This document shows, piece by piece, positions 4,293 to 38,513 of a stretch of 38,513 nucleotides of DNA; within the stretch, counting starts at the first letter, position 1, and each line of letters starts with the position of its first letter. The stretch comes from an uncultured Oscillospiraceae bacterium (GTDB lineage Bacteria; Bacillota; Clostridia; Oscillospirales; Oscillospiraceae): the NCBI GenBank assembly GCA_947589745.1, contig CANQCS010000020.1:1-38513 (forward strand), read 5' to 3'. The position numbers and the translations under genes were made by a program. The notes under the pieces were generated by a model that worked only from the letters and a program-made list of their open reading frames with translations, was not told where the DNA came from and ran no database searches.

Positions 4293-4310
4293 CATACCTG
4301 ACAATCGAAT

Positions 4311-4397
4311 GGGGAGCTTGTGTGACAGGCTGAGAGGAAGGTGGACCTTCGACCCAGGACCTGATTTGGATAATGCCAACGTAGGGAAACGTCAAGA
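4311..4397 (+). promoter_or_regulatory. TPP (THI-box) riboswitch aptamer
   Basis: The conserved core elements of the thiamine pyrophosphate riboswitch are present in order. These are GGGGAGC opening stem P1/P2, then CTGAGA, then ACCTGAT-TTGGATAATGCCAACG, then TAGGGAA. It lies between a good promoter and an intrinsic terminator and is followed by thiM. In this class, ligand binding stabilises the terminator, so thiamine pyrophosphate should switch the operon off. Confidence 0.95.
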
Positions 4398-4406
4398 CAC
4401 AGTCAG

Positions 4407-18456: not shown

Positions 18457-19159
18457 GGGGGCCTCCGGCCCCCGGGACGGTTTTTTGCACCTTGCAGGTG
18501 CGGCGGGCCCCTGGCCTACTTTTCCCCCACGGGAAAAGTAGGCAAAAGCGTGCTCAAGGGGGCCTTTGGCCCCCTTGAGAATCCCCTCCGTGGGGAAGGG
18601 CGTTAAGGGCAGATGGCCGGTTTAGACTAGGGGCCAGGGAAAGCATTCATCGGGGGTGCTGGTTTGTTTTTTGCCGTAGTCGATACTACTGGTTGCTCCG
18701 TTCCACTACGCAATTGATGAATGTTTCTTGTCGGGCCGTCAGCGAAAATCTGTCCTGTGCGTAGTGGAACGGAGCAGGACGCAGTACGATTCAGGCCGTG
18801 TACGGAAATGTATCAATTGCGTAGTGGAACGGAGCAACCAGCAGTTGGACAAGCACAAAAACGACCAGCGCACCCAATGTTTCGGTTTCGCCGCCCCAAG
18901 CGGCGAAACTTGCGCCGCAGAAGGATCTCCTTGGGGACATAGTTGGATAGCCGCAGAATCCCATACACGGGACTCGGCACGGTTTAGGCAAAACCAGCCA
19001 CAGGGGGAGCGCAAAACAAAAAAATAATGAGGAAAGATTCTCAAGAAAACCTCGGTTTTCTTGAGCGTGCTTTTGGTTACTTTTCCCACGGGGGAAAAGT
19101 AACCCAGGGGCGCACCCATCGGGGGTGCACATCAGACCTGGTGGGGGCCGGAGGCCCCC
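18457..19159 (+). mobile_element. Large hairpin-rich MITE-like element, copy A
   Basis: This 703-nt stretch fills most of the gene-free interval. Both ends carry the same series of hairpins in mirror order. The outermost is GGGGGCC-TCC-GGCCCCC (18457-18473 and 19143-19159). Next is a GCACC/GGTGC hairpin, then a xxxTACTTTTCCC hairpin (18514-18543 and 19075-19104), then a CTCAAG hairpin (18553-18579 and 19040-19065). Inside, TGCTCCGTTCCACTACGCA (18694-18712) is inverted at 18758-18776 and again at 18818-18836, exactly 60 nt later. No transposase is encoded. Short open frames exist but lack ribosome sites. The element is most likely a non-autonomous mobile repeat or structured RNA; boundaries are approximate. 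Confidence 0.72.
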
Positions 19160-22924: not shown

Positions 22925-23046
22925 TTGCCCCCGCCGGGGGCGGGGGCTGCGGGGGCGCAGCCCCCATAACAGGTGCGCCGCAGGCGCAACTGTTAATTTT
23001 TGGAGGGGTCTCGACAACCCCGGCGAAAATCCAAATGCTGTGCGTA
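22925..23046. other. GC-rich hairpin cluster beside element B
   Basis: No gene is seen. A GGGGGCTGC/GCAGCCCCC stem (22942-22950 with 22957-22965) is followed by a 12-position stem with one mismatch around GCA (22968-22979 with 22983-22994). These may be an extra end module of the neighbouring repeat element B or separate intergenic hairpins. Confidence 0.5.
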
Positions 23047-23707
23047 GGGGCCTCCGGCCCCTGCCACCTCTTTATTTTGTCGCAGCTTCGCCGCGCACCC
23101 TGGGGTACTTTTTGTACAAACAAAAAGTACCCAAAAAGTTGCCAGCCCTACGGGCTGGACCCCCTTACATTTTTTGATTTGTTTTGCGCTCGCCCTGTGG
23201 CCCGTATTGTCTAAACCGCGCCGGGTCCCGTGTATAGGGGCGAAGCGGCTACCCTAGTCTGTCCCCAAGGGGATTGAAGCGCTGGTGCGGGGGCTCATTG
23301 GGTGCGTTGGTCGTTTTCCTTAGTCCAACTGCCGGTTGCTCCGTTCCACTACGCAATTGGTAGATTTCCGAATACGGCTCGGGACCGACTGCGTCCTGCT
23401 CCGTTCCACTACGCAAAAGACAGATTTCCGTATACGACCCGAAAAGAAACATCCATCAATTGCGTAGTGGAACGGAGCAACCAGCAGTAAGAATAAGGAA
23501 AAAACAAGGCGGCACCCCCGATGAATGCTTTCTCTGACCCCTAGTTCAACCATCCATCTGTCCTTAACCGTCATCCCGGAGGGATTCTTAAGGGGGCGAA
23601 AGCCCCCTTAAGCGCACTTTTGGTGACTTTTCCTGCGAGGGAAAAGTCACCGGGGGATGGCAGGCACCCCCAGGGTGCCTACTAGCCCGGTAGGGGCCGG
23701 AGGCCCC
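23047..23707 (-). mobile_element. Large hairpin-rich MITE-like element, copy B
   Basis: This is the same architecture as copy A but in inverse orientation. The outer hairpins GGGGCC-TCC-GGCCCC lie at 23047-23061 and 23693-23707. TACTTTT-type hairpins lie at 23103-23132 and 23622-23651. Inner hairpins lie at 23142-23158 and 23587-23612, the latter CTTAAGGGGGC-type. The core 19-mer lies at 23337-23355 and 23397-23415 (60 nt apart), with its inverse at 23461-23479. The palindrome from 23397 to 23479 is 83 nt, as in the other copies. The stems differ in sequence from copy A while pairing is kept. No credible coding gene is inside. Confidence 0.72.
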
Positions 23708-28109: not shown

Positions 28110-28138
28110 AAGGGGGCCGCGCCGGACCTGTATGCGCA

Positions 28139-28254
28139 CATCTTCTTCCATCCAGACTGTCACTGTCGGTACCGGACTCACACCGGTTCAACGCCTCGCG
28201 GCGCTCGCGGACTCTACCGCCGGTGGGGACTTGCACCCCGCCCTGAAGATGATC
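28139..28254 (-). promoter_or_regulatory. FMN (RFN element) riboswitch aptamer
   Basis: On the minus strand the conserved RFN blocks appear in order: ATCTTCAGGGCGGGGTGCAA, GTCCCCACCGGCGGTAGAGT, CCGCGAGC, ACCGGTGTGAGTCCGGTACC, GACAGTGACAGTCTGGATGG and the closing AAGAAGAT. It lies between a good promoter and ribU. Flavin mononucleotide binding should lower ribU expression. Confidence 0.96.
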
Positions 28255-28403: not shown

Positions 28404-28494
28404 GATACTTTTTCTTGAAAGAAAAAGTATCAAAAAGAACTTTAACATCGCTGCCAAAATGCTGCCAGTCTTTTGTTTCCCACACGGTAACGAT
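28404..28494. repeat. Short hairpin repeat, copy 5 (inverse orientation)
   Basis: This copy reads in the opposite direction. The hairpin GATACTTTTTCTT (28404-28416) with 28419-28431 comes first. CAAAAAGAACTTTAACATCG and the end CACACGGTAACGAT follow. It forms most of the 5' leader of the ABC exporter transcript. Confidence 0.75.
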
Positions 28495-37929: not shown

Positions 37930-37990
37930 AACAAATAACTCCTTTCTGATAGTCGGGGTGCAAGGGGCTCCGCCCCCACCGGGTCCTGGT

Positions 37991-38513
37991 AGGGACCTCC
38001 GGTCCCTGCTGTCCCCTGGTGACTTTTCCCTCGCAGGAAAAGTCACCAAAAGTGCGCTTAAGGGGGCTCGCGCCCCCTTAAGAATCCCGGCCGTTTGGAG
38101 GGACGTTAAGGGCAGATGGATGGTGGAACTAGGGGCCAGGGAAAGCATTCATCGGGGGTGCTGTTTTTTGCCGTATTCCTACTGCTGGTTGCTCCGTTCC
38201 ACTACGCAATTGATGGATGTTTCTTGTCGGGCCGTCAACGGAAATCTGTCCCGTGCGTAGTGGAACGGAGCAGAACGCAGTTTGTCAACAAAAACGACCA
38301 ACGCACCCAATGAGCCCCTGCACCAGCGCTTCACTCTCCTTGGGGACATACTCACTGTAGCCGCAACGCCTCATACAACGGGAGCGAGTCCGGTTTAGAC
38401 AAAACCAGCCACAGGGGGAGCGCAAAACGAAACAAAAAATATGGTTATCCCTTTGAATCAGCAGGAATAGAAAGAGCAATAGCGACAAGGAGGCGCTCGG
38501 GGAGAGCGGCAGG
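37991..38513 (+). mobile_element. Large hairpin-rich MITE-like element, copy C (runs off the window)
   Basis: This copy has the same orientation and order of parts as copy A. The outer hairpin AGGGACC-TCC-GGTCCCT (37991-38007) keeps the TCC loop although the stem differs. It is followed by a GGTGACTTTTCC hairpin and a CTTAAGGGGGC hairpin, then the conserved interior. The core 19-mer lies at 38190-38208 and its inverse at 38254-38272, again 83 nt overall. The extra 60-nt unit present in copies A and B is absent. The right end is beyond the window. A further GGGGC-TCC-GCCCC stem at 37964-37976 may belong to it. Confidence 0.7.

Follow-up and report, generated by a model that had tools for sequence, protein, structure and literature searches.

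The DNA analysed here, called the window, is a stretch of 38,513 nucleotides from an uncultured Oscillospiraceae bacterium. It carries three long, hairpin-rich elements of a common architecture, copies A, B and C, and the question raised by this locus is what they are. In the first-pass annotation, they were considered to be a non-autonomous mobile element, a large non-coding RNA, or both, without a transposase and outside any named family. Further copies, covariation, empty sites in relatives and target-site duplications were named there as the signs to look for. All three copies and their hairpins are present at the positions reported, and it was borne out that none of them encodes a transposase. 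The absence of a named family with such a layout agrees with our literature search, whose scope left out preprints and most subscription papers.

Copy A is located at 18457–19159 on the forward strand, with a span of 18515–19103 from hairpin 1 to hairpin 1, and the following features lie on that strand. The left end is composed of an outermost GC-rich hairpin (18457–18473), a GCACC/GGTGC hairpin (18487–18501), seen in the sequence and different among the copies, and hairpin 1, CCTACTTTT..AAAAGTAGG (18515–18542). Next comes a CAAAA linker with GCGTGC (18543–18553), a portion of which pairs with the hairpin-1 loop as a pseudoknot, and then hairpin 2, CTCAAG..CTTGAG (18553–18579), supported by covariation. 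The left internal arm (18685–18718), after which the passenger gene comes in cargo copies, has its complement in the right internal arm (18812–18845). The conserved right-core motif CGGTTTAG..GCGCAAAAC (18980–19017) is common to related species. At the right end, hairpin 2 (19040–19065), hairpin 1 (19076–19103), a GCACCC/GGGTGC hairpin (19112–19128) and an outermost GC-rich hairpin (19143–19159) are found in turn. An additional copy of the right arm lies at 18758–18776.

Copy B is located at 23047–23707 on the reverse strand (hairpin-1 span 23104–23650). Copy C occupies 37964–38513 on the forward strand, with its hairpin 1 at 38019–38046; its right end is absent and the contig stops inside it. 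The boundaries proposed earlier held for A and B, whereas copy C begins nearer 37964 than 37991. The up to four mirror-ordered hairpins reported at each end were confirmed in part: xxxACTTTT and CTYAAG recur and are diagnostic, whereas the outer GGGGCC and GCACC hairpins vary in number and type. Several other features were seen in the window. A separate short hairpin repeat, GATACTTTTTCTTTCAAGAAAAAGTATC, occurs at 168, 6688 (variant), 10087, 27377 (variant) and 28404, and may be a small relative of hairpin 1 because CAAAAAGAAC comes after the copy at 28404. Another GC-rich hairpin repeat, like aacagttgcgcctgcggcgcacctgtt, adjoins several elements (about 22935–23000 by copy B, and the flanks of loci L018, L028 and L033). 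Ordinary RNAs of the window are a TPP riboswitch (4300–4404), an FMN riboswitch (28136–28254) and a tRNA gene (1368–1439).

The genome of origin (G000) is an assembly of 4.05 Mb in 252 contigs and is 98.8% complete. An end pattern consisting of hairpin 1, CAAAA, the linker and CTYAAG, which leaves ends with a different second hairpin uncounted, was matched four times in the window and in none of 100 shuffles. Throughout the genome, 197 exact matches were obtained, split 99 to 98 between the strands; the pattern read backwards gave none. Therefore, the three dispersed copies of the first-pass annotation are real, but the number is a great undercount. A similarity search of this genome with copy A returned 274 candidate places, of which 40 were scored. 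Forty stretches around matches, one of them repeating part of the window, were fetched from this genome, and then 40 more. From these stretches and the window, 71 complete elements were paired by script; with 28 from other genomes, the set reached 99.

The order of an element is as follows: outer GC hairpins of varying kind and number, hairpin 1, the CAAAA linker, hairpin 2, a left core, an internal arm, optional cargo, one or two opposite arms, a right core, and the end modules reversed. Overall sizes range from about 400 bp to 3 kb. In this genome, the median hairpin-to-hairpin length is 527 bp and 7 of the 71 elements exceed 700 bp, a proportion that may overstate the share of cargo because about half of the stretches were picked for an end without a partner within ~700 bp. 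Pairwise identity among 58 copies in this genome has a 5th percentile of 73%, a median of 80% and a maximum of 92%. With copies this diverged, either the elements moved long ago or identical copies were lost in assembly. Contigs C20, C44, C3, C7, C15 and C22 of this genome start or stop inside or at an element; the assembly is therefore probably broken up by these repeats, and copies that are nearly identical may be hidden.

Each end has a 12-bp hairpin-1 stem that is variable but paired, with ACTTTT/AAAAGT in the middle of the stem and free paired bases around it. The pseudoknot, in which the hairpin-1 loop forms 3 bp with bases after CAAAA in the linker, is a new addition absent from the earlier description of the hairpins. 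Among 79 distinct ends, 97.3% of 1185 cells of the hairpin-1 stem and pseudoknot are paired, a figure in which six of the twelve stem pairs were set by the search expression. This expression fixed ACTTTT, AAAAGT and CAAAA and required two of three outer pairs with G-U allowed, and the positions so constrained do not count as evidence; neither the inner stem nor the pseudoknot entered into the selection. The 79 ends include two that resemble another small repeat. For the pseudoknot alone, 97.0% of 237 cells are paired and 62 two-sided changes were counted, compared with 13.6 in shuffles, and controls with slid positions gave far lower values than the true register. Where both hairpins were considered (51 ends), pairing is kept in 98.3% of 1166 cells, and two-sided changes number 273 against 75.8 in shuffles; these ends were selected for a second hairpin of at least 7 pairs, which biases the percentage paired and affects the two-sided changes less. 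They were taken from 65 ends, 14 having been removed by eye for an odd second hairpin or as near-duplicates, and two were trimmed by one 3' base. The controls are much lower in percentage paired, in cells with a two-sided change and in covariation score. Other counts stay near the shuffles: in the 79-end set, 9 pairs have a two-sided change against 8.7, and pair types are 22 against 20.2. In the 51-end set, the shuffles have more pair types than the real ends (35.1 against 30), in keeping with the scarcity of G-U. The earlier observation that stems differ while pairing is kept thus holds at 97–98% of cells with many two-sided changes, and selection for structure is supported for the element ends by the covariation of the hairpins and the pseudoknot, which lies far above shuffles.

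The composition of the pairs and the loops gives further information on the folding. G-U accounts for 6 of 840 standard variable pairs in the ends and for 15 of 187 in nine tRNA genes from the fetched loci. Since a G-U pair becomes A-C on the opposite strand, this scarcity suggests that the pairs form in DNA, or on both strands, and DNA pairing is favoured over RNA pairing. The most frequent loop of the left end (37 of 71) is not found among the eight most frequent on the right, and left and right loops are identical in only 2 of the 71 elements. In most elements, pairing between the two ends would therefore be poor, and each end folds independently.

The family extends well beyond this genome. 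Matches to copy A occur in 16 of the 25 genus genomes (the present one among them), the listed matches being mostly over the end modules, and in 10 of 150 genomes of the family, for each of which three candidates were scored. With a covariance model built for the end, this module was detected at E<=1e-5 in 55 of 200 genomes from the family and in 39 of 106 genera, with 26 scored candidates for each genome. At E<=1e-6, it was detected in 25 of 295 genomes of the order, in 18 of 149 genera and nine families; these order-wide E-values are rough and single weak matches may be chance. The ends recur around cores that copy A does not match. In a genome of another genus (G179), they appear as inverted pairs around cores differing from copy A, and in two genomes of another family (G249 and G267), an inverted end pair, 399–466 bp across, surrounds other cores at 16 of 20 loci; of the four loci without such a pair, three run into a contig end. 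The right core is conserved across the genus, and its pattern was found in 21 stretches of named records from Oscillibacter, Oscillospiraceae and Clostridia MAGs. IMG/VR viral contigs had no match to two exact patterns, phage records had none, and plasmids had one irrelevant 39-bp match. At three loci of G022 (L076, L077 and L079) and at one of this genome (L151), the right core is inverted at both ends in a long foldback form.

Evidence of movement was sought with the joined flanks of five sites (L034, L040, L044, L026 and L035) within the genus. Uninterrupted sites were found. At the L034 site, the element separates a stop codon from the gene that follows. Of 24 relatives, 14 match there without a break at the junction, three have both flanks with an insert, two have one flank and five have none; in an alignment of 14 loci fetched for this site, the flanks nearly touch in 12. 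These uninterrupted sites come from other species and are too diverged to fix the junction bases. The inserts of the other relatives are 965 bases in G021, 187 bases in G022 and 104 bases in G009. A methyltransferase-like gene, judged by eye, stands in G021 (L247) where 14 relatives have nothing, and the small hairpin repeat GATACTTTTTCTTTCAAGAAAAAGTATC occupies the site in G022 (L248). As the inserts of G021 and of the present genome differ, this spot takes varied inserts. The L040 site is uninterrupted in G002; in 11 more relatives both flanks are on one contig, 33–242 bases over the query, and in G021 they are 624 bases over it. For the L044 site, both flanks were found in G022 with 102 bases between them. 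The L026 and L035 sites were uninformative. The target-site duplications hoped for were not found consistently in the 99 elements: 24 share at least 8 bases, the shuffled mean being 19.9 (sd 3.8), and no peak was obtained at fixed offsets in the 65 elements with recognisable outer hairpins, the exact borders being uncertain in both analyses. A symmetric repeat of 9 bases was noticed in the L020 copy, but by itself it does not count as evidence of duplication.

Most copies inspected hold only a lineage-specific, apparently non-coding core, and a few hold genes, which in this genome lie between the internal inverted arms; the arm repeat extends further in such cargo copies. The passenger genes in this genome encode BspA-type LRR proteins that resemble one another at the C-terminus (L018, L043 and L042), GNAT acetyltransferases (L152 and L169) and a DUF6809 protein accompanied by an HTH_3 gene (L167); L165, L030 and L025 hold frames to which no Pfam family matched. 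In relatives, HTH_3 genes (L096, L099 and L113) and an unmatched frame (L053) are carried, and a 3-kb element, L109, contains a resolvase along with a frame that resembles a lipoprotein and matches Lipocalin_4. A single arm of the pair was seen in L167, L024 and L025, and only the left one in L169. No transposase recurs among the passenger genes of the elements inspected.

The search for a mobilising enzyme by profiles, at recombinase loci and among frames near the ends identified none. The Y1 transposase profile PF01797 has no match in this genome, whereas 5 of 14 control genomes match, and a Y1/IS200 enzyme was rejected as the mover. Among 30 serine recombinase loci with 1.5-kb flanks, the end hairpin was detected by regular expression only at L109, and the recombinase gene is present in 8 of the 9 genus genomes without a copy A match; both results speak against a serine recombinase. 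Just a short GATACTTTTTC repeat was found at the recombinase locus L118. As for a passenger transposase, a single weak DDE-like fragment (L170:829–1407, E 0.00056, under the curated cut-off) was found and is not shared. The frames near ends in other genomes belong to host-type families (45 of 145 listed frames and two L109 proteins), and transposases are absent among 25 of 30 families listed for those frames, except for the known L109 resolvase. No autonomous transposon with the same ends was present among the loci inspected, the genomes being sampled by locus.

Taken together, copies A, B and C are probably non-autonomous mobile elements of an order-wide family, recognised by their folded DNA ends. 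The ends fold with covarying pairs and stand inverted around different cores, the elements are dispersed, relatives have uninterrupted sites, and some copies carry passenger genes. A trans-acting enzyme would recognise the folded ends rather than their sequence, most likely on single-stranded or extruded, cruciform DNA, and would move whatever stands between two such ends, so that passengers may travel with them. Against this reading stand the lack of a mobilising enzyme and of a consistent target duplication, and the divergence of the copies leaves recent movement unsupported. Of the two proposals of the first-pass annotation, the mobile element is sustained by the dispersal, the uninterrupted sites and the passenger genes, whereas the large structured non-coding RNA is not supported. 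Apart from the end hairpin, RNAalifold with 35 of 90 right-core sequences yielded nothing but a weak helix of 4 pairs, thus no consensus RNA fold of this part of the interior, and no Rfam family covers the element at curated thresholds, weaker matches being unconvincing; the G-U deficit points the same way.

An RNA-based origin, in which a structured transcript with pseudoknotted ends is copied to DNA by a reverse transcriptase, is disfavoured and appears very unlikely. A-rich linkers next to an A/T-rich stem suit RNA pseudoknots, and this genome has seven PF00078 matches at E<=0.001, of which six exceed the family cut-off. The scarcity of G-U pairs and the right core without a consensus fold argue against it, as do the inverted end modules, by which a single transcript cannot show the same fold at both ends. 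Somewhat less improbable, and still unlikely, are non-mobile intergenic structures such as terminators, mRNA stabilisers or nucleoid sites, kept by local function and spread by recombination. In their favour, pairing is retained in copies that have diverged, and the L034-site element is placed after a stop codon and ahead of the next gene; however, that site is uninterrupted in 14 of 24 relatives, passenger genes are present, and the ends form inverted pairs even around other cores.

We give about the same low probability to an oversized REPIN moved by a single-copy IS200-like TnpA-REP (RAYT) that is too diverged for Pfam or missing from the assembly. The high copy number of this genome agrees with it. 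PMC3116915 describes REPINs as inverted palindrome pairs thought to be moved in trans, and PMC6006769 describes REP hairpins and IS200/IS605 ends as recognised in the form of folded DNA. Against it, PF01797 is missing from a genome that is 98.8% complete while 5 of 14 controls match, the elements reach from about 400 bp to 3 kb and some carry genes, and in none of the 99 elements does GT[AG]G occur within 2 nt 5' of the foot of hairpin 1, the hairpin examined, on the left or on the right.

The preferred reading, a non-autonomous mobile family with folded ends, has practical consequences. Should recognition act on folded DNA ends, the 79 natural variants already indicate which bases have to pair and which are free, so that the recogniser can be fished for and directly tested. 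With 197 exact ends in 4 Mb of genome, the elements are abundant, and they probably break short-read assemblies; the contig of the window itself stops inside one. Genes for surface proteins, acetyltransferases and regulators are carried in a form that transposase-based surveys would miss. More tentatively, and with the odds against it, these elements may represent a new transposable element class, common in the order, with ends read as pseudoknotted DNA by an enzyme outside the known transposase families and with internal inverted arms serving as a swappable gene slot.

Among the known systems, REPINs with RAYT/TnpA-REP are similar in the inverted palindromic hairpin pair, the many copies and the lack of an enzyme inside the element (PMC3116915). 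Two inverted units, as in a REPIN, were observed at the 16 of 20 G249 and G267 loci and at other strong matches, whereas the 99 script-paired elements were paired left to right by design and are no test of this. The present elements differ in the lineage-conserved core, the passenger genes of some copies, the length of 0.4–3 kb and the loop-linker pseudoknot, and they are not filed as REPINs because the Y1 enzyme and the GT[AG]G guide were not found. IS200/IS605 elements insert 3' of a fixed short target without duplicating it, and their ends act on one strand. They and their derived non-autonomous elements are alike in having ends recognised as folded hairpins (PMC6006769), and unlike in that the end modules here are inverted, no TnpA was found and the covarying pairing runs from loop to linker, not from guide to cleavage site. 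MITEs and passenger-carrying non-autonomous transposons share the terminal inverted modules, the lack of a transposase and the dispersal; in contrast to them, the two ends here share a fold rather than a sequence, and neither a target duplication, with the borders uncertain, nor, among the loci inspected, a parent transposon was found. Integron gene cassettes (attC) differ from these elements, which have two inverted ends each and were not seen in arrays. The likeness to the cassettes lies in a fold that is kept more than the sequence and in a variable gene payload.
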